The translations under genes and the position numbers were made by a program. A stretch of DNA of 36,314 nucleotides, taken from the IMG/VR virus record IMGVR_UViG_3300034117_001053, positions 1 through 36,314 of that record; one strand, written 5' to 3'. Every line of letters starts with the position of its first letter. The stretch's first letter is position 1. The DNA comes from a virus. Shown piece by piece: positions 1 to 36,314 of the stretch. The notes beneath the pieces were generated by a model. It was given only the letters and a program-made list of their open reading frames with translations, made no database searches and was not told the origin of the DNA.

Positions 1-196
1 CCGAACGATGATACCAACTTATTGCGTATTGATCTTGCAATAAACAGTTAGTTACTTCGCCATTAATGTTAATGCCAGGATAACGCTTCTCGCCATCGTA
101 GTAAAACTCAGCAAGTCCAAACGCCTTATTAGGTGTTAATGGTAACGCTGCGATAATAGCGTTGTCAATTTCGGTTATTACTTGCTTAAGATTCAT
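1..196 (-). CDS. Tail completion/terminator-like protein, N-terminal part (cut by window edge)
   Basis: This is the first 65 codons of the gene found complete at 32893-33444. It starts at ATG 196 and overlaps the last 4 bases (ATGA) of the preceding 151-aa gene. The break is only the edge of the window, not a biological truncation. See the complete copy for the description. Confidence 0.85.
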   Translation of the reverse strand, partial: MNLKQVITEIDNAIIAALPLTPNKAFGLAEFYYDGEKRYPGININGEVTNCLLQDQYAISWYHRS

Positions 197-648
197 TTGT
201 TCATTATTAATAAAGCGGTTTCTTGCGCAACGATTTGAGTCATTTCAAGCTCACGTTCTGACAATGCCCAAATTTCACCATATTTCTCAGTTAAATATTC
301 TGTTTTTGTTTTACTATCGTTTTCTATTGTGTTACCTAAATTATCAATTGTGTAACCTTTCTCAGTTGCTTTTAATGTATAAGCACCCTCTAACTGCCTT
401 GTCAACGATGCAATAACAGTACTATCCGCAGTTCGATTGTATTGTGATTGTCTTATCTTTAAATAGCTATTGCTATACGTTCCTATCTTACTACCATCCG
501 TTTTTTTACCGCTTGTATGAATGCGATAATGCAACTCAGGCAGCACCGCAATAGCCGCAGCCCTTGAAACCGTTTCGGGGTTTCCAAGTTCTCGAAACTT
601 AGCAAGTATATTGCCAATCACAAATGGTATGTTAGAGGTTATATCCAT
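193..648 (-). CDS. Virion morphogenesis / tail completion-like protein (HK97 gp10-type), 151 aa
   Basis: The size, the basic centre with a 'HTSGKKTDGSKIGTYS' segment (about residues 44-59) and the place between capsid/connector and tail-tube genes fit the head-tail joining or tail-completion proteins of the gp10/phage virion morphogenesis type. The C-terminal half is helical and acidic ('EKYGEIWALSERE', about 122-134). The start codon overlaps the stop of the 340-aa gene upstream in a TAATG arrangement, which suggests translational coupling. The 3' end overlaps the next gene by ATGA. The assignment is by position and general pattern; no catalytic motif is expected. A second identical copy lies at 33441-33896. 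Confidence 0.55.
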   Translation of the reverse strand: MDITSNIPFVIGNILAKFRELGNPETVSRAAAIAVLPELHYRIHTSGKKTDGSKIGTYSNSYLKIRQSQYNRTADSTVIASLTRQLEGAYTLKATEKGYTIDNLGNTIENDSKTKTEYLTEKYGEIWALSERELEMTQIVAQETALLIMNK

Positions 649-1670
649 TAAGGTAGCTGAGTAAACACTTGTATTTGACTATTGCACTCTAAACATGCAT
701 CACATTCTAATTTAATGCCGCCTAATGCATTCTTAATTGCCTCCTCATAACGTGTTGTGTATAATGCTAACAACTCGTTAGCCTCCTCACGTTTAACCGT
801 TGTGTAGAAGTTTGTTCTTTCCGAATATAAACGCTCAGTCATAAACTCGATGCCTAATGCATACCAATAAGCTTCAGCAAACAGCATTCTATTTGAACAA
901 ACCGCAGAATCATAACTGCATCCAAGTGTTAATAGTACTTGTAATGAGTCAGCAATAGTGTTGTATGTTAGTGTTCCGTTTGCACTTGAATTTGATGAAA
1001 CAAAACCATTGATTTGACCGCATGTTCCGCAGTCATAATAAGCGCTAAAACAACTGGCAAAAAACGTATCTGAATCGGTGGTCGAATAGGTAACACCGTT
1101 AATGTTTGTGTCTAAAAAACCGATGGCTAAAATAGCGCAATCAAATTGTTTTAGTATAGAGAATTCATTCCAACCATTAACCATATTTGCAACGGTTAAA
1201 GTCTTAGTGAATAGTACTTCCTTAGATAAGTAATTAAAAAACTTTACATCAATTGTCGTTGCAGTTGTGGTGCTTGACTTGTAAAATCTTATTTTGTCAA
1301 CCGTTGTTGTTTGCAATGGGCTAATCTTCCAATTGTCAACAAGTGTGTAAGCCGAATTTATAACGATGCCCTTGAATAAATTGTTACTTGTTGAGGGTAA
1401 CTCATCATCGCCAAACACATCGACTGTCCTACGCACTCTTTTGATATCGTAACGGGTTGACATGTACGATATAATTTGATTCTTCATTCGCGCCTCAGCA
1501 CGTTCATTGATAGCATTCCATACGCCGATGTAATTTTGTTGCTCACTATTGGCTACTTGCTCAAATGATTTTAATGAAATGCCTGGCAGGCTGTTTAAAG
1601 AATAAACAGCCTGCGGCACCTCTGTAATTGAGCAACCGTTGAGTTTTACGATTCCGTCAAAACAACTCAT
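648..1670 (-). CDS. Putative head-tail connector with an inserted beta-rich domain, 340 aa
   Basis: The gene lies 3 bp downstream of the major capsid gene and ends coupled (TAATG) to the tail-completion-like gene, the usual place of a head-tail adaptor. The N-terminal part (about residues 35-75) and the C-terminal part (about 262-320) look strongly helical with many charged residues, as in adaptor proteins. Between them, about residues 95-230, lies a Thr/Ser/Val-rich beta-type stretch that looks like an inserted sandwich domain, perhaps exposed on the virion surface. Cysteines cluster near 216-219 ('CGTCG') and at the C-terminus ('CDACLEC'). I do not recognise the family by name; connector is inferred from place and secondary-structure impression. 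An identical copy is at 33896-34918. Confidence 0.5.
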   Translation of the reverse strand: MSCFDGIVKLNGCSITEVPQAVYSLNSLPGISLKSFEQVANSEQQNYIGVWNAINERAEARMKNQIISYMSTRYDIKRVRRTVDVFGDDELPSTSNNLFKGIVINSAYTLVDNWKISPLQTTTVDKIRFYKSSTTTATTIDVKFFNYLSKEVLFTKTLTVANMVNGWNEFSILKQFDCAILAIGFLDTNINGVTYSTTDSDTFFASCFSAYYDCGTCGQINGFVSSNSSANGTLTYNTIADSLQVLLTLGCSYDSAVCSNRMLFAEAYWYALGIEFMTERLYSERTNFYTTVKREEANELLALYTTRYEEAIKNALGGIKLECDACLECNSQIQVFTQLP

Positions 1671-1673
1671 TTA

Positions 1674-2786
1674 TTAAGAGTTAGTTGCGGTGTAACGTAA
1701 ACTTCCATTGTTGCCAGTTAATCTGTCAGATGCTAAGTAAGCATCACTTGGCACTTGCCATAATGCAAATCTCTTAGACATAATCAAAGAATATCCTGCT
1801 CCAAGCGTTGCAGATTCGTAACCAACTGTGGTTTCAGTAGGGCAGTCAATCTCTCTTAATTGGAAATCGATGTTTAACATACCTAAAGTTCCCTCACTTC
1901 CTGGCATTTCAAATGGCATTGCCATGTTCCAGAATGTAGATAAACCAAGTTGTTGTGCTCTGAATCCTTTGTAACGGTCTAATTCAACAATACCAAAAGT
2001 TCCAGGCATCAATACTGCAAACTGATTTGACCCCCAAGATGTACCTGAATAGATATCGTGGTAGTAATCAATGTTACCAGCAGCGGCCGCGTTGTTTAAC
2101 GTAGCGTATTGAGTCATTGCAGGATTCAAAGATTGAACGTAAGCAGAATCAACCAAACCACTTCCAACAACGATTGGTCTACCTTGACCCTCATTGCTTC
2201 TGTAATCGGTTAACACTTTTGTCCAACCCTCTGTAAAATCATTTACAGTTGAATCGTTGTTGAAGTTAACGGTAACCGCAGTATTGTTTCCAGTTACTAC
2301 GTTTGTACCCCATGTAACTTGACCTAACAATGTTTGGTCAATCTTACCAACGAAGCCATTCATAGCAGCCATTAAGCCTGCTAAGTGTTCTTGCATAAAT
2401 GGAGTTGGTGCACCACCGATTGATACAGTTGCAGAAGCCTCATCGCAGTAACGTGCGATAGTTGCTTGGTCAAAGTGTAATCCGAATTTTACGATTGAAG
2501 TTGTATCAATTGTAATTTCATCATACGCTTGTACTAAGTCAATATCACAGTTGTCAGCGGTTGACATTTGTGCTGGTGTTGTACGTTGGTAGTATTTCAA
2601 TCTTAAATCTTTAATGTGGCCTGCAGTGTTTGCAAGTTGCAAAGAGTCAGCGATTGGTGTTGCGTTTGCGCCTTTCTCTAAAGCAGCGCGTAAAAATCCC
2701 GTAGGAGTAATCTTATGTTCTGGTGCGTTTTGTCCAATTATGAATTTCATATGTTGGAGCATCGCGGGGCAATAACCTAATGCCAT
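1674..2786 (-). CDS. Major capsid protein, 370 aa
   Basis: The protein follows a scaffold-like gene directly and precedes connector-type genes, the standard place of a major capsid protein. The composition is typical: soluble, Ala/Gly/Thr/Asn-rich, without signal peptide or membrane segment. It has a helical middle ('HLAGLMAAMNGFVGKIDQTL', about residues 134-153) like a capsid spine helix, then beta-rich stretches such as 'FAVLMPGTFGIVELDRYKG'. The length suits an HK97-fold capsid subunit that uses a separate scaffold. I saw no protease domain. The start is ATG 2786 with an A-rich leader. The exact fold is inferred; the role is well supported by context. An identical copy is at 34922-36034. 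Confidence 0.8.
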   Translation of the reverse strand: MALGYCPAMLQHMKFIIGQNAPEHKITPTGFLRAALEKGANATPIADSLQLANTAGHIKDLRLKYYQRTTPAQMSTADNCDIDLVQAYDEITIDTTSIVKFGLHFDQATIARYCDEASATVSIGGAPTPFMQEHLAGLMAAMNGFVGKIDQTLLGQVTWGTNVVTGNNTAVTVNFNNDSTVNDFTEGWTKVLTDYRSNEGQGRPIVVGSGLVDSAYVQSLNPAMTQYATLNNAAAAGNIDYYHDIYSGTSWGSNQFAVLMPGTFGIVELDRYKGFRAQQLGLSTFWNMAMPFEMPGSEGTLGMLNIDFQLREIDCPTETTVGYESATLGAGYSLIMSKRFALWQVPSDAYLASDRLTGNNGSLRYTATNS

Positions 2787-2799
2787 GATATTTTAGTGT

Positions 2800-3678
2800 T
2801 TATTTCTGCCCGAAACCTTGCAATGCGATGTCTAAGTCGCTTAAAGCGTTGGCTGCCGCGGCAGATGGTTTAGATGAGCTTTGTTGGCTCTGTGTCGACT
2901 TTGGTGGCATACCGCCTCCATTGTCAGATACTTTCAAAAACTTGTTGTCGGCCAAGGCCATATCTGTGAGAGTGTCAAGGTCGAGTTCCTTTCCGTTGTC
3001 AAAGATAAGCATTTTATCATCATCTTTTGCAACTAATTTTAACTTACCATCAATTTTTTTTATTGCCGCACTTTTTTCAGCAAGTTTTTTATTTAAAAAC
3101 TCACGCGCAATCTTAGATTCGACATCCAAACCAAACTGACCAGGCAACTTCTTAGATGAAATGATGCGGTTAATCTCCATCTCTGTAAACTCGCCATCAT
3201 ACTTAGCAACAATTGCATCGATAGCACTTTGCTTTTCAAATGCGGCATCGGTTGCGGCCTTAGAAAGTTGTGCGCTTAGTTCGTTAATCTTACGTTCAAG
3301 TTCTGCCTTATCGCCTTTGCCATCAATTTGCTTTGATTTCAATTCAGCAATCTTTTTTATTGCTACCTCAACTTTATTGTAGGTGTTTGGGTCATCGGTA
3401 ATCAGTTTGATAGTATCATCATCGGCGCCATTGTCCTTTAACCACGTTGAAACTTTATTATTGAACGGATCTAATGCCTCGGCTTTAAAATGTTTCTTAA
3501 TGTCGATGTTATTCTTTGCCTCATTTGCACTCATAAGAGTAGTCAATGATTGGTCAACCTCATCAGGTATCTCAGCAACCAGTTCTTTGATGCCTATAAG
3601 TTGTCTGTATGTTTCAGAGTTAAGGTCGAAACCCGCTTTGGTAAGTAATTTTTTAATTGTATCAGCTAATATTGCCAT
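2800..3678 (-). CDS. Capsid scaffolding protein, 292 aa
   Basis: This is a highly charged Lys/Glu/Asp/Ala-rich protein encoded just upstream of the capsid gene. Residues about 105-165 are a heptad-like coiled coil ('DKAELERKINELSAQLSKA'), followed by a helical region to about 210. The C-terminus is a Ser/Gln/Lys-rich linker (about 255-275) ending in a short amphipathic helix ('ANALSDLDIALQGFGQK'), the usual form of a scaffold with a capsid-binding C-terminal helix. It resembles DUF4355/GP20-type scaffolds in plan. The start ATG 3678 follows the stop of an 18-codon microgene by 23 bp. A truncated copy is at the right end of the window (36048-36314). Confidence 0.75.
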   Translation of the reverse strand: MAILADTIKKLLTKAGFDLNSETYRQLIGIKELVAEIPDEVDQSLTTLMSANEAKNNIDIKKHFKAEALDPFNNKVSTWLKDNGADDDTIKLITDDPNTYNKVEVAIKKIAELKSKQIDGKGDKAELERKINELSAQLSKAATDAAFEKQSAIDAIVAKYDGEFTEMEINRIISSKKLPGQFGLDVESKIAREFLNKKLAEKSAAIKKIDGKLKLVAKDDDKMLIFDNGKELDLDTLTDMALADNKFLKVSDNGGGMPPKSTQSQQSSSKPSAAAANALSDLDIALQGFGQK

Positions 3679-4119: not shown

Positions 4120-5037
4120 TTATTTATTTGCAAATGTAGCAATTATATTCTTAGGTACAAGCGAAGCGGGTATCGGATATGCTTGGTGCCCGCAGTTATA
4201 ACCGCCTCGATAAGTTTGGAAGTTACTTGGGTTAGTATCCTCAATCATTCCTTGCGGTAAGTCAGTGCGTGGATTGATTTGTCCTTGCATTTCTTTAAAT
4301 TCTGCAAAGTTGCCTTTGATAATCTTTGGCAGTTCGCTTCTGTGGTAGTATTGCTTTTGCGTTAATGCCTTACAAAACGTTCGTGTTGTCTTTATATTAC
4401 TGCCGACATATCGAAACCAATCCCAACCCAAATCCGCGCTTATAGCTTGGTTAACGGTGGCGTTGTATTGATTGATTGAATCAGTTGCAATCTGTTTTGT
4501 GTACTTAACTAATGCGCCATCAATCGTTGGTGTGCCATTGATGTAGTTGTTTAGTTCCTTAGATAGCTTAGAGTAACTTCCACCCGTAGTTACATATGTG
4601 TTAATCATTTCGCGCACTGGAGTGATGAGGTTTTGATTCAATCCCGATTCGGTTAACCCCTCCAACGTAACCGATATTGATTGTTGCCTGATTGCCTCAA
4701 CTACTTTAGGCGGTTTGAATTTCTTTTCAAGTGCTTTGTAGTAAGAAAAATTAAGCGCGTTTACCTTATCGTAAAGCTTTGCAAACTTCGTTACACTTTC
4801 GCCATAATCGGAATCATCTAAAATGATTGTTTCTAAGTCGCTCTTAAGACTGGATAATAGTTTGATATTCTTAACTGAATTTGTTATCGTATCGCCTTGA
4901 ACACCTAACTCACGTTGGAATTGTAATAGCCTACGATAGATTTGTTCTTGAATTTTTGGCATTGCCTCATTCCAAGTAATCAAACCATTGTCAATGGCGT
5001 TTAATGTTGATTGTATTTCTTTACTTCCAACCGCCAT
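4120..5037 (-). CDS. Phage head morphogenesis protein (SPP1 gp7 / Mu gpF-like), 305 aa
   Basis: The protein follows the portal gene directly (TAATG overlap at 5037), as minor head proteins of the Mu F/SPP1 gp7 family do. The long N-terminal region is helical. The C-terminal signature is recognisable: 'VGSNIKTTRTFCKAL' (about residues 211-225), corresponding to the family's R-x-x-x-C/H element, and 'RGGYNCGHQAYPI' (about 277-289), corresponding to its N-C-x-H/C-x(2-4)-P ending. Family members occur in few copies inside the head and act in DNA injection or head assembly. The family call is from motif and synteny. Confidence 0.75.
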   Translation of the reverse strand: MAVGSKEIQSTLNAIDNGLITWNEAMPKIQEQIYRRLLQFQRELGVQGDTITNSVKNIKLLSSLKSDLETIILDDSDYGESVTKFAKLYDKVNALNFSYYKALEKKFKPPKVVEAIRQQSISVTLEGLTESGLNQNLITPVREMINTYVTTGGSYSKLSKELNNYINGTPTIDGALVKYTKQIATDSINQYNATVNQAISADLGWDWFRYVGSNIKTTRTFCKALTQKQYYHRSELPKIIKGNFAEFKEMQGQINPRTDLPQGMIEDTNPSNFQTYRGGYNCGHQAYPIPASLVPKNIIATFANK

Positions 5038-6986
5038 TAAGTTAATTTTGTTATCTTATCCAACTGCGCTTCCGTTGTTACAATTTGCGGTGTTCCTAAT
5101 TGCGCCTTAGCTTGTTCATAAGTTAATCCAAATCTATCCATAACCATTTCAATAGCTGCGTCTAAATCGTACACACCACTACTTACTGCTTTAACGATTT
5201 CAATAATACCCGATAAACCACCGACTGAGTATTTCAAATTTGCAGGAGATGGCCCACCAGTTGTTGATTGTGCTTCGTTTATATTGAATATCTGATTAAA
5301 CAATATGTCCTTAGTGTTTATTTCTTTTAACTTCTCAACTGCAAATCCATTCAATACCGCTTGTTGCCTTGACTTATCTAAGCGGTTAAATTCAGGATTC
5401 TCAGCGTATGCACGTTGCACGAAATCTTGAATGTATGTGCTTATAACCGCATCAGTTTTAGATAGCATCTTATTGCTTACCAACAACGCTTTCTCCTCTT
5501 GCGTTTTACCACTTGCGGGGTCAAGGTTGAATGCATCGCGTAACATATCTTGCATTGCGATGTCATTCGGAAATCTTTTAACGATATATTCTAACTCTTG
5601 CGCACTTAATACCGCATCGTTTAAACCGCTATCCTTAGCCGCTTTAATTTCCTCAAGTATTAGTTGACTGCCTAAGATGTCAAACTGATTTGGCACAACG
5701 CAAACTGGCACCATTGACTTAATGGTTGCCACATCGTATATTTCTTTATATCGCCACATTGCACATAACTCCGCAATGTTTGTCATTATCGTTCCTAAGT
5801 CAACTGCAACACCATAAAAAGTGTTGTTTGTTTCATCTCTGTCATATGCCTTTGCAACACCACTTTGAGCCGCTGGTTGTGCCTCTAAAAACTGCATATT
5901 GATGGCAGCTAACGAACGATAACGCATTTCGTTTATGCGTTTATCCTGCAACTCAGCAATCTCGGTTTGTTTTTGTATGTAGCCCATCGGTGGAGTTGGT
6001 GCTGGCACTTCTCCCATCGATGTTTTAGCAGGTCTTACACGTATAGTTTCGTATGGCGATGTCGGAATCTGCCCATCCTTACACTTGCTATTAGTACAAG
6101 GAACACGCTCTTGCTCTTTTGTAAAAGTAAAGCCTTGACCGTTGCAACTTTTACATTGCTCATCTTGGTAAATCCAAACCGTTGAATGAATGTGCTGCGT
6201 AATCTCAGCACGTAAATCACTAAACTCAACCGTAGCCACGTTAAGCCATGGTAACATTGCTTTTAATCTGCTTTGATACTCGCGGCCAAGTTCTTCTTCT
6301 TCTTCAACAACACCACCGATTGTAAAGCCAGGGAATACACCTAAGCCATGGAATGTTTCCTCAACTAAATCAAACCCGTTGCCTTTCTTTTTCTTGCGCC
6401 ACTTGGACCAACTAATCTTATCAATCGAATAATATACATTACCATTGTCATCATCCTTGTAAACGATGCTATTGCCCTCGTAATGGTAAACAATGCTACT
6501 TGAATTGATTACGTAAGGTTTCGGCTTCTTATATTCAGTTGGCTCAGCTTGTTCAGCCCACACAATAATAACACCGTTAGCATCGATTGTATATTGTTTT
6601 AAGCCCACTTGAAAAGCCCAATTCATTAACGATTTGGAAGCGGTAAAGTTTTTAGTAAGGTATGTTTTTAAGTCCTCATCTTTGGCAATTCTTGGATATT
6701 GCGTGTCGGGAAACTTTAAAAAGAATCCATCCGCACGTTGTATTTTATTTAGTGCATTTAAAACGCGATCATAAACTTCGCTAAACACCGCCTCATAAGT
6801 TTTCTTACGATATTCCTTAACGATTATGTGCTCGTTAGGTCTTACCTCATCGATTAATTTACGTGGATATTCTCCATCGGAATAGTATTGGAAGTTAACA
6901 TATTCCTCATCTTCTATATGTGGATTACGTGCGACATCGGCAACGATATCGGCATCAATAATAATGTATTTGTTTTCGGTTTCCAT
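5037..6986 (-). CDS. Portal protein with a zinc-ribbon-like insertion, 649 aa
   Basis: The length, the place ahead of the head morphogenesis, scaffold and capsid genes, and the plan (mixed N-terminal domain, helical stem near residues 340-440, helical C-terminus with 'LTYEQAKAQLGTP' near 630) fit a large portal protein. The portal forms the twelve-fold ring through which TerL pumps DNA. An unusual feature is the DnaJ-like cysteine cluster 'CKSCNGQGF' (C278, C281) followed by 'CTNSKCKDG' (about 296-304), two paired-cysteine knuckles expected to bind one zinc. A Lys/Arg-rich patch 'WRKKKKGNG' lies near 197-205. The ATG at 6986 directly follows the TAA of the glycosyltransferase gene. I am confident of the role by context, less so of the zinc site. 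Confidence 0.75.
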   Translation of the reverse strand: METENKYIIIDADIVADVARNPHIEDEEYVNFQYYSDGEYPRKLIDEVRPNEHIIVKEYRKKTYEAVFSEVYDRVLNALNKIQRADGFFLKFPDTQYPRIAKDEDLKTYLTKNFTASKSLMNWAFQVGLKQYTIDANGVIIVWAEQAEPTEYKKPKPYVINSSSIVYHYEGNSIVYKDDDNGNVYYSIDKISWSKWRKKKKGNGFDLVEETFHGLGVFPGFTIGGVVEEEEELGREYQSRLKAMLPWLNVATVEFSDLRAEITQHIHSTVWIYQDEQCKSCNGQGFTFTKEQERVPCTNSKCKDGQIPTSPYETIRVRPAKTSMGEVPAPTPPMGYIQKQTEIAELQDKRINEMRYRSLAAINMQFLEAQPAAQSGVAKAYDRDETNNTFYGVAVDLGTIMTNIAELCAMWRYKEIYDVATIKSMVPVCVVPNQFDILGSQLILEEIKAAKDSGLNDAVLSAQELEYIVKRFPNDIAMQDMLRDAFNLDPASGKTQEEKALLVSNKMLSKTDAVISTYIQDFVQRAYAENPEFNRLDKSRQQAVLNGFAVEKLKEINTKDILFNQIFNINEAQSTTGGPSPANLKYSVGGLSGIIEIVKAVSSGVYDLDAAIEMVMDRFGLTYEQAKAQLGTPQIVTTEAQLDKITKLT

Positions 6987-26723: not shown

Positions 26724-26966
26724 ATGAGCAAACAAACAGCAGTTGAATGGTTAATGGAACATCTTACGGAAATAAAAAAAGATTGTAGACTTTCAGAGAT
26801 AAGTTCATTATTTAACCAAGCCAAAGCAATGGAAAAGGATCAGATAATATATTCAAATTATAATGGTCAAAGTATTGGTAAAAAATTAATAGATATTGAT
26901 GTACATCAAATGAAAATAAAAGCAGAACAATACTACAACGAACAATTTAAACAAGATAATCTATGA
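26724..26966 (+). CDS. AVEWL-family small protein, copy 3, 80 aa
   Basis: The ATG at 26724 (MSKQTAVEWLMEHL) is chosen rather than the in-frame ATG at 26700, because it follows the upstream stop by one base and aligns with copies 1 and 2. 'NQAKAMEKDQIIYSNYNGQ' and 'AEQYYNEQFKQDN' complete the family pattern. It is the longest copy, with an extra charged stretch before the C-terminal motif, and overlaps the endolysin gene by ATGA. Confidence 0.7.
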   Translation: MSKQTAVEWLMEHLTEIKKDCRLSEISSLFNQAKAMEKDQIIYSNYNGQSIGKKLIDIDVHQMKIKAEQYYNEQFKQDNL

Positions 26967-27385
26967 AACCAAAAGATGAAAGTAAGCCATACGAATCGAG
27001 ATTAATCGAGGACTTACACCCAACATTAGCCAACGCTTATAAGAAAGCCGAAGCCCAGTTTAATGCTGCTCACAACGATGTTCACGTTATCATTGTATGC
27101 ACTTATCGTAATAATGCAATGCAGGAAGTTTATTATCATAAGCGACCAAAGATAACCCAAGCGAGAGCGGGCCAGTCACCGCATAATTATTACCCATCAA
27201 GAGCATTCGACATAGCATTTGTAAAAGTTGGAAAACGTGAACTTGACTACTCCGCAAAGCATTTTAAAGAGTTTTGGGAGATGTTGCAATCGGCATCTAA
27301 TAAGCTAACTTGGGGTGGTAATTTTAAGAACTTTTCAGACCAACCGCACTATGAACTTACCAACTGGAAAATGACTATAATATGA
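26963..27385 (+). CDS. Endolysin, peptidase M15 (L-alanyl-D-glutamate/VanY-like), 140 aa
   Basis: The zinc-peptidase pattern of the M15_4/CwlK-type endolysins is visible: 'VCTYRNNAMQ' (R49), 'GQSPHNYYPSRAFDIAF' (H74 and D83 as zinc ligands) and 'WGGNFKNFSDQPHYEL' (H129, with D126 nearby). These enzymes cut the peptide stem of peptidoglycan at the end of infection. The protein is a single domain without signal peptide, so release should depend on a holin, as expected from the two-TM gene downstream. Confidence 0.88.
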   Translation: MKPKDESKPYESRLIEDLHPTLANAYKKAEAQFNAAHNDVHVIIVCTYRNNAMQEVYYHKRPKITQARAGQSPHNYYPSRAFDIAFVKVGKRELDYSAKHFKEFWEMLQSASNKLTWGGNFKNFSDQPHYELTNWKMTII

Positions 27386-27791: not shown

Positions 27792-28046
27792 ATGAATCTA
27801 AAACAAAAATACCGCAGCCCAGACAACCGCCAGTTAAAAAAGATTGCAGACTATTTAATCTACGTTTTGCTGCCATTTATTCAGACATCGTTAGCACTCG
27901 CAGAAACGCAAGGATTAATCAGTTTACGACAAGCGTTTTGGGGCGGATTGGCAGCGACATTTTTATTGATTAACACTAAATTCTTAACCAAATTTACAAC
28001 TGAAAAACCTACCAAAACTGCTATAATTGATGGTGATGGGTGCTAA
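27792..28046 (+). CDS. Holin-like two-TM protein, 84 aa
   Basis: The ATG at 27792 (MNLKQKYRSPDNRQLKKIAD) is preferred over the longer frame from 27753, which would overlap the previous gene. Residues about 20-40 ('YLIYVLLPFIQTSLALAE') and about 50-66 ('FWGGLAATFLLINTKFL') are two membrane helices; the ends are charged. Size, topology and place just after the endolysin and before a spanin-like gene fit a class II holin, although holins are hard to prove from sequence. Confidence 0.6.
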   Translation: MNLKQKYRSPDNRQLKKIADYLIYVLLPFIQTSLALAETQGLISLRQAFWGGLAATFLLINTKFLTKFTTEKPTKTAIIDGDGC

Positions 28047-28062
28047 TAATAACAATATAAAT

Positions 28063-28188
28063 AGTGAGGTGGCGGAATGGTAGACGCATGAATAAAGGTT
28101 AATAGTAAAGATAACGTAGAGTAACCTTGAGACACCCGTAAAGTTCAGCTCATAAGTTATCATACAAGTTCGAATCTTGTCCTCACTA
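28063..28188 (+). tRNA. tRNA-like gene (class II, Leu/Ser-like arms) with about 42-nt insertion
   Basis: The ends pair as a 7-bp acceptor stem, AGTGAGG (28063-28069) with CCTCACT (28181-28187), followed by A and no encoded CCA. Next come T8 and G9, a 3-bp D-stem GCG/CGC (28072-28074 and 28085-28087; G71 is position 9) with loop GAATGGTAGA, much like tRNA-Leu. The T arm is ideal: ACAAG-TTCGAAT-CTTGT (28164-28180). TGAAT (28089-28093) can pair with GTTCA (28143-28147) as an anticodon stem, but 49 nt lie between them instead of 7. That insert forms its own 7-bp hairpin, AAGGTTA/TAACCTT. No loop with U33 and a clear anticodon can be assigned; CCGTAAA before the 3' stem half is the nearest. Total length is 126 nt. 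Confidence 0.6.
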
Positions 28189-28202
28189 CTAAAAATAACA
28201 AT

Positions 28203-28769
28203 ATGAAACCACAACACCAACTTATTACATTCGCAGCCCTATGTTTACTGCTAATTATCGGTTTAAATCATTGCGCCAAAGACAACCCAAAGCCTATCCC
28301 ATTTGACTACAAATTAGAAGCGGAAATGATTAAAAAGCAGTTTGGCATTGAGCAGGCAATATTGCTGAATCAACTGGAAGCAGCTACCCGAAGATTGCAA
28401 GTTGCCAATAACGCAAAAGATAGCATTAGACAACGTGAAATATCATTAACCAACACTAACATAGCTTTGATGAAGAAAATGCGCCAAACGCTTCCAAAAG
28501 AGTGTGATACGGTGTTTGTTTTATGTGATGAAATAATCAATGTTAAGGATTCAAGTTATGCTGCGTTATTTACTGCGTTTCAACTTTGCGCTGATGGAAG
28601 CACAATTAAAGATAGTTTGATTACCAACTACAAAGCGGAGAATATCACAGATAGCACATTATTAGTGATCAGTAAGCAAGAAACGAAACAACAACGCAAA
28701 GGCAAGGTAGCTGCGTGGTGTGTTGGTGGTGCAATGTTTTTAATTTGGCTTGTTGTTGGTTTGAAATAA
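28203..28769 (+). CDS. Unimolecular-spanin-like lipoprotein/membrane protein, 188 aa
   Basis: The N-terminus has a hydrophobic segment ending at a cysteine ('LITFAALCLLLIIGLNHC', C24) followed by AKDN, a relaxed Bacteroidota lipoprotein signal. The middle (about residues 45-95) is a Gln/Leu-rich coiled coil ('IEQAILLNQLEAATRRLQ'). The C-terminus is a membrane helix ('VGGAMFLIWLVVGLK'). A lipidated N-terminus in the outer membrane linked to a C-terminal inner-membrane helix is the plan of a u-spanin (T1 gp11 type), which disrupts the outer membrane at lysis. Context with endolysin and holin-like genes agrees. The lipobox is poor, so an N-terminal TM anchor is the alternative. Confidence 0.55.
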   Translation: MKPQHQLITFAALCLLLIIGLNHCAKDNPKPIPFDYKLEAEMIKKQFGIEQAILLNQLEAATRRLQVANNAKDSIRQREISLTNTNIALMKKMRQTLPKECDTVFVLCDEIINVKDSSYAALFTAFQLCADGSTIKDSLITNYKAENITDSTLLVISKQETKQQRKGKVAAWCVGGAMFLIWLVVGLK

Positions 28770-32892: not shown

Positions 32893-33444
32893 TTAGCATT
32901 CGCAAATGACTGTGCAGCCTCTGCGATATGTTTGTTTGATTTCGTATCGAACTGCTAACAGTCCATGGTTAAGACCGACTCTCACATCGGGTATTGAACA
33001 TTCCTCTTTAAACACTAAAGTTGAATTCATTTCGGTTTCCGTTAACTCGAATGTGCAATCAAATACGTTAATGCTCTCACACACTAATTTACTTAATACA
33101 CTTGGAATAGCCGAAACAAATATATCCTTAATTGTTTGCGATGTTAATGTTTTATTTGCATAAATGACAAGTGTAACGGGTGTTGTTTCCTCCACCTTAT
33201 CCATCTTGTCACCAAAATTATTTTCAATTACTGTTAAACGTGATGACTCCGAACGATGATACCAACTTATTGCGTATTGATCTTGCAATAAACAGTTAGT
33301 TACTTCGCCATTAATGTTAATGCCAGGATAACGCTTCTCGCCATCGTAGTAAAACTCAGCAAGTCCAAACGCCTTATTAGGTGTTAATGGTAACGCTGCG
33401 ATAATAGCGTTGTCAATTTCGGTTATTACTTGCTTAAGATTCAT
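32893..33444 (-). CDS. Tail completion/terminator-like protein, 183 aa
   Basis: This complete copy spans the left edge of the terminal repeat. The protein has an N-terminal helix ('LKQVITEIDNAIIAALP'), strands in the centre ('TTPVTLVIYANKTLTSQTIK') and a Cys-containing C-terminus ('YRRGCTVICEC'). Its place between the gp10-like gene (ATGA overlap at 33441) and the major tail tube gene fits a tail terminator or completion protein. No name can be given from motif alone. The first 196 bp also appear at the left end of the window. Confidence 0.5.
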   Translation of the reverse strand: MNLKQVITEIDNAIIAALPLTPNKAFGLAEFYYDGEKRYPGININGEVTNCLLQDQYAISWYHRSESSRLTVIENNFGDKMDKVEETTPVTLVIYANKTLTSQTIKDIFVSAIPSVLSKLVCESINVFDCTFELTETEMNSTLVFKEECSIPDVRVGLNHGLLAVRYEIKQTYRRGCTVICEC

Positions 33445-33896
33445 TTGTTCATTATTAATAAAGCGGTTTCTTGCGCAACGATTTGAGTCATTTCAAGCTC
33501 ACGTTCTGACAATGCCCAAATTTCACCATATTTCTCAGTTAAATATTCTGTTTTTGTTTTACTATCGTTTTCTATTGTGTTACCTAAATTATCAATTGTG
33601 TAACCTTTCTCAGTTGCTTTTAATGTATAAGCACCCTCTAACTGCCTTGTCAACGATGCAATAACAGTACTATCCGCAGTTCGATTGTATTGTGATTGTC
33701 TTATCTTTAAATAGCTATTGCTATACGTTCCTATCTTACTACCATCCGTTTTTTTACCGCTTGTATGAATGCGATAATGCAACTCAGGCAGCACCGCAAT
33801 AGCCGCAGCCCTTGAAACCGTTTCGGGGTTTCCAAGTTCTCGAAACTTAGCAAGTATATTGCCAATCACAAATGGTATGTTAGAGGTTATATCCAT
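33441..33896 (-). CDS. Virion morphogenesis / tail completion-like protein, second copy, 151 aa
   Basis: The translation is identical to the gene at 193-648. This copy shows the true downstream junction, with ATGA overlap on the complete tail-completion gene at 33444. It is the same physical gene if the map is circular. Confidence 0.55.
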   Translation of the reverse strand: MDITSNIPFVIGNILAKFRELGNPETVSRAAAIAVLPELHYRIHTSGKKTDGSKIGTYSNSYLKIRQSQYNRTADSTVIASLTRQLEGAYTLKATEKGYTIDNLGNTIENDSKTKTEYLTEKYGEIWALSERELEMTQIVAQETALLIMNK

Positions 33897-34918
33897 TAAG
33901 GTAGCTGAGTAAACACTTGTATTTGACTATTGCACTCTAAACATGCATCACATTCTAATTTAATGCCGCCTAATGCATTCTTAATTGCCTCCTCATAACG
34001 TGTTGTGTATAATGCTAACAACTCGTTAGCCTCCTCACGTTTAACCGTTGTGTAGAAGTTTGTTCTTTCCGAATATAAACGCTCAGTCATAAACTCGATG
34101 CCTAATGCATACCAATAAGCTTCAGCAAACAGCATTCTATTTGAACAAACCGCAGAATCATAACTGCATCCAAGTGTTAATAGTACTTGTAATGAGTCAG
34201 CAATAGTGTTGTATGTTAGTGTTCCGTTTGCACTTGAATTTGATGAAACAAAACCATTGATTTGACCGCATGTTCCGCAGTCATAATAAGCGCTAAAACA
34301 ACTGGCAAAAAACGTATCTGAATCGGTGGTCGAATAGGTAACACCGTTAATGTTTGTGTCTAAAAAACCGATGGCTAAAATAGCGCAATCAAATTGTTTT
34401 AGTATAGAGAATTCATTCCAACCATTAACCATATTTGCAACGGTTAAAGTCTTAGTGAATAGTACTTCCTTAGATAAGTAATTAAAAAACTTTACATCAA
34501 TTGTCGTTGCAGTTGTGGTGCTTGACTTGTAAAATCTTATTTTGTCAACCGTTGTTGTTTGCAATGGGCTAATCTTCCAATTGTCAACAAGTGTGTAAGC
34601 CGAATTTATAACGATGCCCTTGAATAAATTGTTACTTGTTGAGGGTAACTCATCATCGCCAAACACATCGACTGTCCTACGCACTCTTTTGATATCGTAA
34701 CGGGTTGACATGTACGATATAATTTGATTCTTCATTCGCGCCTCAGCACGTTCATTGATAGCATTCCATACGCCGATGTAATTTTGTTGCTCACTATTGG
34801 CTACTTGCTCAAATGATTTTAATGAAATGCCTGGCAGGCTGTTTAAAGAATAAACAGCCTGCGGCACCTCTGTAATTGAGCAACCGTTGAGTTTTACGAT
34901 TCCGTCAAAACAACTCAT
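33896..34918 (-). CDS. Putative head-tail connector, second copy, 340 aa
   Basis: The translation is identical to the gene at 648-1670, including the beta-rich inserted region and the C-terminal cysteines. No differences were seen, so nothing suggests independent evolution of the two copies. Confidence 0.5.
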   Translation of the reverse strand: MSCFDGIVKLNGCSITEVPQAVYSLNSLPGISLKSFEQVANSEQQNYIGVWNAINERAEARMKNQIISYMSTRYDIKRVRRTVDVFGDDELPSTSNNLFKGIVINSAYTLVDNWKISPLQTTTVDKIRFYKSSTTTATTIDVKFFNYLSKEVLFTKTLTVANMVNGWNEFSILKQFDCAILAIGFLDTNINGVTYSTTDSDTFFASCFSAYYDCGTCGQINGFVSSNSSANGTLTYNTIADSLQVLLTLGCSYDSAVCSNRMLFAEAYWYALGIEFMTERLYSERTNFYTTVKREEANELLALYTTRYEEAIKNALGGIKLECDACLECNSQIQVFTQLP

Positions 34919-34921
34919 TTA

Positions 34922-36034
34922 TTAAGAGTTAGTTGCGGTGTAACGTAAACTTCCATTGTTGCCAGTTAATCTGTCAGATGCTAAGTAAGCATCACTTGGC
35001 ACTTGCCATAATGCAAATCTCTTAGACATAATCAAAGAATATCCTGCTCCAAGCGTTGCAGATTCGTAACCAACTGTGGTTTCAGTAGGGCAGTCAATCT
35101 CTCTTAATTGGAAATCGATGTTTAACATACCTAAAGTTCCCTCACTTCCTGGCATTTCAAATGGCATTGCCATGTTCCAGAATGTAGATAAACCAAGTTG
35201 TTGTGCTCTGAATCCTTTGTAACGGTCTAATTCAACAATACCAAAAGTTCCAGGCATCAATACTGCAAACTGATTTGACCCCCAAGATGTACCTGAATAG
35301 ATATCGTGGTAGTAATCAATGTTACCAGCAGCGGCCGCGTTGTTTAACGTAGCGTATTGAGTCATTGCAGGATTCAAAGATTGAACGTAAGCAGAATCAA
35401 CCAAACCACTTCCAACAACGATTGGTCTACCTTGACCCTCATTGCTTCTGTAATCGGTTAACACTTTTGTCCAACCCTCTGTAAAATCATTTACAGTTGA
35501 ATCGTTGTTGAAGTTAACGGTAACCGCAGTATTGTTTCCAGTTACTACGTTTGTACCCCATGTAACTTGACCTAACAATGTTTGGTCAATCTTACCAACG
35601 AAGCCATTCATAGCAGCCATTAAGCCTGCTAAGTGTTCTTGCATAAATGGAGTTGGTGCACCACCGATTGATACAGTTGCAGAAGCCTCATCGCAGTAAC
35701 GTGCGATAGTTGCTTGGTCAAAGTGTAATCCGAATTTTACGATTGAAGTTGTATCAATTGTAATTTCATCATACGCTTGTACTAAGTCAATATCACAGTT
35801 GTCAGCGGTTGACATTTGTGCTGGTGTTGTACGTTGGTAGTATTTCAATCTTAAATCTTTAATGTGGCCTGCAGTGTTTGCAAGTTGCAAAGAGTCAGCG
35901 ATTGGTGTTGCGTTTGCGCCTTTCTCTAAAGCAGCGCGTAAAAATCCCGTAGGAGTAATCTTATGTTCTGGTGCGTTTTGTCCAATTATGAATTTCATAT
36001 GTTGGAGCATCGCGGGGCAATAACCTAATGCCAT
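34922..36034 (-). CDS. Major capsid protein, second copy, 370 aa
   Basis: The translation is identical to the gene at 1674-2786. Two identical capsid genes within one virion genome would be redundant, which supports reading the repeat as overlap of a circular or permuted map. Confidence 0.8.
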   Translation of the reverse strand: MALGYCPAMLQHMKFIIGQNAPEHKITPTGFLRAALEKGANATPIADSLQLANTAGHIKDLRLKYYQRTTPAQMSTADNCDIDLVQAYDEITIDTTSIVKFGLHFDQATIARYCDEASATVSIGGAPTPFMQEHLAGLMAAMNGFVGKIDQTLLGQVTWGTNVVTGNNTAVTVNFNNDSTVNDFTEGWTKVLTDYRSNEGQGRPIVVGSGLVDSAYVQSLNPAMTQYATLNNAAAAGNIDYYHDIYSGTSWGSNQFAVLMPGTFGIVELDRYKGFRAQQLGLSTFWNMAMPFEMPGSEGTLGMLNIDFQLREIDCPTETTVGYESATLGAGYSLIMSKRFALWQVPSDAYLASDRLTGNNGSLRYTATNS

Positions 36035-36047
36035 GATATTTTAGTGT

Positions 36048-36314
36048 TTATTTCTGCCCGAAACCTTGCAATGCGATGTCTAAGTCGCTTAAAGCGTTGG
36101 CTGCCGCGGCAGATGGTTTAGATGAGCTTTGTTGGCTCTGTGTCGACTTTGGTGGCATACCGCCTCCATTGTCAGATACTTTCAAAAACTTGTTGTCGGC
36201 CAAGGCCATATCTGTGAGAGTGTCAAGGTCGAGTTCCTTTCCGTTGTCAAAGATAAGCATTTTATCATCATCTTTTGCAACTAATTTTAACTTACCATCA
36301 ATTTTTTTTATTGC
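36048..36314 (-). CDS. Scaffold protein, C-terminal part (cut by window edge)
   Basis: This is the last 88 codons of the scaffold gene, identical to 2800-3066. The apparent ATG at 36260 is internal; the frame is open to the end of the window. The cut is the end of the contig, not a biological truncation. Confidence 0.85.
   Translation of the reverse strand, partial: AIKKIDGKLKLVAKDDDKMLIFDNGKELDLDTLTDMALADNKFLKVSDNGGGMPPKSTQSQQSSSKPSAAAANALSDLDIALQGFGQK

Follow-up and report, generated by a model that had tools for sequence, protein, structure and literature searches.

Positions 1–3066 of the window, which here means the whole analysed stretch of 36,314 nucleotides of IMG/VR virus record IMGVR_UViG_3300034117_001053, are an exact repeat of positions 33249–36314 (offset 33,248), and the terminally redundant contig is one circle of 33,248 bases read beyond its own start. 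A tRNA-framed element lies on its plus strand between two open reading frames (ORFs), and the features of the locus are as follows.

27792..28046, plus strand: upstream ORF of the ORF list, small membrane protein, named holin-like from its position alone, no PHROGs match
28063..28188, plus strand: whole tRNA-framed element from the acceptor 5' end to A73, 126 nt, Rfam tRNA score 38.6 bits, 29 distinct relatives
28063..28069, plus strand: acceptor stem 5' strand AGTGAGG, 7/7 pairs with 28181–28187
28072..28087, plus strand: Leu-type D arm GCGGAATGGTAGACGC, including A14, A15 (28077) and G18G19, recognised from the sequence and the Rfam tRNA match
28088..28163, plus strand: 76-nt core (insert) replacing the anticodon arm and the variable arm, its last base T being U48
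28095..28101, plus strand: P1 5' strand AAGGTTA, pairing with 28122–28128
28110..28115, plus strand: P2 5' strand GATAAC, inside the P1 loop (pseudoknot)
28122..28128, plus strand: P1 3' strand TAACCTT, pairing with 28095–28101
28156..28161, plus strand: P2 3' strand GTTATC, ending 2 nt 5' of the T stem, where tRNA-Leu has the 3' strand of its variable arm
28164..28180, plus strand: T arm ACAAG-TTCGAAT-CTTGT
28181..28188, plus strand: acceptor stem 3' strand CCTCACT (28181–28187) and discriminator A73 (28188)
28203..28769, plus strand: downstream ORF, named spanin-like from position and hydropathy alone, no PHROGs match

The initial annotation had recognised the 7-bp acceptor stem, the Leu-type D arm, the T arm, the AAGGTTA/TAACCTT hairpin and the GATAAC/GTTATC pairing, and all of them are present where it placed them. 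It also took the neighbouring genes as holin-like and spanin-like; these names stand as descriptions of place (and of hydropathy for the second), and the endolysin at 26963–27385 is the only neighbour supported by a PHROGs match. Short repeats AATAACAATAT flank the element at 28044–28062 and 28189–28202.

The Rfam tRNA model, with a gathering score of 29, matches positions 28063–28188 under permissive filters and leaves the element's central part unaligned; the fast-filter search missed it. ARAGORN found no tRNA there in the default run. With an intron allowed, as the initial annotation had advised, it does report a tRNA-Leu, but the predicted anticodon differs between settings. The tmRNA model RF00023 and the Rfam group I intron model gave no match in the window up to E=10, and the 76-nt core is too short for such an intron, in agreement with the earlier opinion that the insert is not a usual group I intron. 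The nested minimum free energy of the whole element is ordinary (z −1.05), so the case for the element rests on comparison and not on energy.

The core of the window was found in 38 DNA stretches, on contigs of 4 kb to 271 kb. Among 27 aligned relatives of the element, every P2 cell is paired (100%), and the sole double change is GGTAAC/GTTACC in locus L142. P1 is paired in 92.6% of cells and is essentially invariant; P1 and most P2 pairs show no variation among the relatives of this core. One double change was seen in the D stem, three T-stem pairs carry double changes in the family, and the fourth acceptor base pair is C-G, G-C or A-U. Over the whole structure of the 27 relatives, nine pairs have a double change, compared with 2.2 in shuffles and 0–4 in slid controls. 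P1 is conserved without covariation. Judged from these alignments, GATAAC/GTTATC is P2 of the window-core family, and because P1 and P2 cross, this family is pseudoknotted. The pairing TGAAT/GTTCA, earlier taken for an anticodon stem, does exist in the sequence but is coincidental, as it is complete in 3 of the 27 relatives and has one to four of five pairs in the rest.

The window element occurs in 20 contig groups with unrelated flanks at a mean identity of 88%, and in L241 its core sits inside a different tRNA-like frame; the core thus has the character of a module. Since relatives sit in tRNA arrays as well as in these unrelated surroundings, the position among lysis genes, to which the initial annotation had attached a possible meaning, is incidental. 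The ATG and stop codons of the core are not kept in every relative, and no conserved reading frame was found. Antisense pairing of the window core to its own phage genome was not significant (4 of 60 shuffles were equally good).

By means of the downstream gene (28203..28769), 64 related loci were fetched. The element is at the same place in eight relatives with enough upstream sequence (L002, L003, L029, L030, L036, L043, L045, and L047); in L035 and L037, an element is present farther 5' and its core is unrelated. The other related loci have a plain short spacer or a different sequence at the site, often an apparent protein gene. As the site varies in this way among close relatives, the element is an optional cassette. 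In relatives without it, a stretch similar to the flank, AACAATAT, lies 5' of the downstream gene.

The wider family was searched for in IMG/VR with a pattern in which the D arm and the T loop were fixed and 60–90 bases between them were free, and conservation of the D arm and T loop is therefore not independent evidence. With a relaxed definition (core of at least 46 nt), the fetched loci hold at least 263 distinct Leu-type elements, with AGTCAGG by far the commonest acceptor; a stricter, earlier set comprised 203 distinct cores in 138 sequence clusters among the matches listed. A search for long tRNA-like frames in general gave 273 in the fetched loci and 0 in reversed sequences. With 29 distinct relatives and a tRNA-like frame in hundreds of phage contigs, the element of the window is more than a chance resemblance. 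The following counts refer to the matches listed. Of 240 elements collected without a pairing filter, 212 have a 7/7 paired acceptor, compared with 0 of 239 in a control taken 25 nt downstream; divergent acceptors such as TCCATAG/CTATGGA, GTCAAGG/CCTTGAC, and GAACGGG/CCCGTTC are still paired. The discriminator is A73 in 227 of 263 distinct elements and G73 in 22, and position 48, the last base of the core, is T in 249 of 263 (95%). In the Levitt pair 15–48, A15 goes with T48 in 239 of 251 elements and G15 with C48 in 8 of 8, a covariation with Fisher p 3.7e-13 on distinct cores, uncorrected for relatedness.

Cores are mostly 46–119 nt long, while those of ordinary tRNA-Leu in the same loci are 31–36 nt. 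Most loci carry one element, 52 of the fetched loci carry two to six, and several different cores can occur in one phage. Phages with at least 20 ordinary tRNAs, including tRNA-Leu(taa) and tRNA-Leu(tag), also carry elements. Ordinary tRNAs within 1.5 kb of an element are on the same strand in 443 cases and on the opposite strand in none. In 12 contigs, the AGTCAGG frame has a class-I D arm instead. L122, L282, and L361, and likewise L153 and L207, have other long tRNA-like frames whose bodies are unrelated and whose recurrent cores, of 104–105 nt and 151–156 nt, are their own. A recurrent small hairpin, for example CTTGGAAAGACAAG or CTCGGAAAGACGAG, stands directly 5' of the elements in L225, L395, L398, and L219, and the element copies in L139, L151, and L315 are truncated.

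When the elements were compared with a decoding tRNA, the covariance model score, acceptor and T stems, D arm, and 15–48 pair were all found, but not an anticodon arm with a 7-nt loop. An arm of 5 bp and a 7-nt loop adjoining the D stem is present in 2.9% of cores and in 2.0% of shuffled ones, whereas 36 of 41 ordinary Leu-like genes in the same loci have it. A helix of at least six Watson–Crick pairs ending 2 nt 5' of the T stem is formed by 22% of unrelated cores and by 1% of shuffled ones, and a helix ending 3 nt 5' of it is likewise far commoner than in shuffles. Because the variable arm of tRNA-Leu has its 3' strand at this position, P2 is read as the counterpart of that arm. A crossing helix of P1 type reached p<0.05 in only 8% of cores across the family, not clearly above chance, and support for the pseudoknot is confined to the window family and a small number of further ones. 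The idea that cores are spacers acquired from the DNA of other phages, or pair with it in antisense, was rejected: the 3.6 Mb of fetched loci gave few weak matches, in numbers similar to those for shuffled cores. The strong core matches in these loci are other elements, partly degraded.

By comparison of sequences, then, the element keeps the acceptor, D arm, T arm, A73, and 15–48 pair of a tRNA-Leu and has a pseudoknotted core in place of the anticodon arm. Its frame is common to a large phage family in which the cores are mostly unrelated and have moved between phages and, once, between frames. This agrees with the proposal of the initial annotation that the RNA is a tRNA mimic with a role other than decoding, as the tRNA frame and the pseudoknot pairing are kept and an anticodon arm is missing.

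Among 84,980 species of bacteria and archaea, three contigs match, and a similar pattern is matched by 2 of 395 Bacteroidota genomes, one of them L410. No element was found by blastn in INPHARED isolates (50,697 phage records). Not found in the isolate records and rare in bacterial genomes, the family is mainly one of uncultured phages. A Bacteroidota host is likely for it. The promoter-like motif TAnnTTTG stands upstream of 18 elements, with 5.3 expected, and L408 and L409 lie in Bacteroidota genomes; L406 is labelled Neisseriaceae and L407 Paenibacillus. On the minus strand of the locus, L410 has an otherwise ordinary-looking tRNA-Leu(UAG)-like gene with what seems to be an extra hairpin of 26 nt, CTAAGCTTCGAGAAAGCGGAGTTTAG, in its anticodon loop. 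Other structured RNAs were met in the phage tRNA arrays. L273 has an RNase P class A-like match inside such an array (4928–5162, minus strand, 49.7 bits, gathering score 100), and L276 a freshwater-1 RNA match between phage tRNAs (2749–2811, 70.1 bits, gathering score 72).

More probably than not, the element is a scaffold matured like a tRNA, probably leucylatable and non-decoding, that carries a cargo RNA; the kept leucine identity elements and the precedent of engineered scaffolds lead to this proposal. RNase P and RNase Z would trim the transcript and CCA would be added as for a tRNA, and by such maturation the frame would act as a scaffold for stability and processing. Charging by LeuRS is probable, as the RNA retains the leucine identity elements of bacteria and charging does not require an anticodon arm. 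In E. coli, the identity of tRNA-Leu lies in A73, the A15-U48 pair, G18G19, and D–T loop contacts, variants that lack both the anticodon arm and the variable arm can still be leucylated, and for LeuRS the G73 of tRNA-Ser acts as an antideterminant (PMC9976931). The elements possess A73, A15-U48, G18G19, and the D–T contacts, of which G18G19 and the T loop are partly fixed by the pattern; given the antideterminant of tRNA-Ser, the 22 of 263 listed elements with G73 count against a leucylatable RNA. The RNA would be unable to read a codon. A constant tRNA frame around an exchangeable insert, as expected of a scaffold, was found, and the core would be the working part, its presumed partner being a protein or RNA from the host or a rival; cores would be swapped because their targets differ or escape. 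We also put forward, tentatively, that the tRNA frame may be a general phage platform for rapidly exchanged RNA effectors, one that is leucylatable, protects its cargo, and presents cargoes against different factors of hosts or rivals.

The chief rival to this cargo scaffold, rather unlikely in our view, holds that the tRNA frame is the active part and works as a decoy or sponge, occupying LeuRS, EF-Tu, RNase P, the CCA-adding enzyme, or a tRNA-cutting defence enzyme; the core would only stand in for the anticodon arm and thereby prevent decoding, or cleavage at that place. The constancy of the frame with its leucine identity elements fits a decoy, as does the variable insertion site among the relatives of the window, and phage-borne tRNAs blunt tRNA-cutting defences, for example retron-Eco7 and PrrC (PMC11555353). 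A decoy would, however, not need a long conserved core, such as the one that is so alike in 20 unrelated contexts, and the several different cores per phage point to core-specific jobs. That one core is strongly conserved in unrelated phages, and that a single phage can have several different cores, favours cargo over decoy.

Decaying or selfish copies of tRNA-Leu that lost the anticodon arm, took up random inserts, and spread by recombination would explain the three truncated copies, the presence or absence of the element among close relatives, and its transfer between unrelated phages. This is improbable, since decay would break what is kept here: acceptor complementarity through many sequences, 15–48 covariation, P2 at a fixed place, and the strongly conserved core of the window. 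The 3' ends of tRNAs are common attachment sites, and the element might accordingly be an attachment or recombination site in DNA, the RNA being unimportant; the short flanking repeats would suit such a site. That is very improbable, as it is the structure and not the DNA sequence that is conserved, the strand bias with nearby tRNAs is complete, and no integrase was recognised by eye among the ORFs of the window. Least probable is the tRNA-Leu gene with a small removable, intron-like insert that the initial annotation had offered as one choice; apart from the ARAGORN report with an intron allowed, it was rejected because the anticodon shifts with the settings, the flanking TGAAT/GTTCA stem is not kept and no anticodon arm restored above chance level in the family, the Rfam group I model gave no match, the inserts share neither boundaries nor sequence, and ordinary tRNA-Leu genes often co-occur with the elements.

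Among known systems, bacterial tRNA-Leu shares with the elements the D arm, T arm, A73, A15-U48, G18G19, and the helix 2 nt 5' of the T stem (variable arm), but the elements have no anticodon arm and longer cores. Like tmRNA, they have tRNA-like ends and other structure, pseudoknots included, instead of an anticodon arm; unlike tmRNA, which is about 350 nt long, the element of the window is about 126 nt, has a D stem, and lacks both a match to RF00023 and a conserved reading frame. In MHV-68 tRNA-miRNA RNAs, a virus expresses another RNA by way of a tRNA frame, but the cargo follows the 3' end of the tRNA and is removed by cleavage, whereas here it would be inside the frame. We know of no variable insert in tRNAOther of Bacillus cereus. 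This pseudo-tRNA resembles the elements as a tRNA-like RNA working outside translation, but it keeps a Trp anticodon and is a single chromosomal gene (PMC3399842). GOLLD and ROOL are also phage-borne structured RNAs near tRNA arrays, of unknown function (PMC12286853), but they are unrelated and far larger; L279 has GOLLD at 4866–5283 (262 bits) and a tmRNA at 1075–1566 (64.5 bits), both in a phage tRNA array that bears elements as well, and GOLLD is a separate gene there.

The closest likeness is to the engineered tRNA scaffold of Ponchon and Dardel, in which the acceptor stem, D arm, and T arm are kept, the inserted RNA replaces the anticodon stem-loop, and the RNA is processed and protected (PMC3753655). 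That scaffold is man-made, with for example a tRNA-Lys frame, while the elements are natural, phage-borne, Leu-type, and have many inserts; by analogy, they may gain a similar stability. In Rfam 15, the elements are matched by the general tRNA family alone, and no description of anticodon-less phage tRNAs with inserts was found in the full texts under CC licences. The elements look like a large unlisted family and, by analogy, like a natural version of the engineered scaffold.

Codon supply, or the replacement of tRNAs cut by defence systems, is the usual explanation for tRNA genes in phages. The same arrays also hold several tRNA-Leu-like genes that would be unable to decode. If these RNAs are made, they would constitute a large unlisted class of phage RNA and a natural precedent for the tRNA scaffold of biotechnology, and their conserved modules would allow a direct search for targets.
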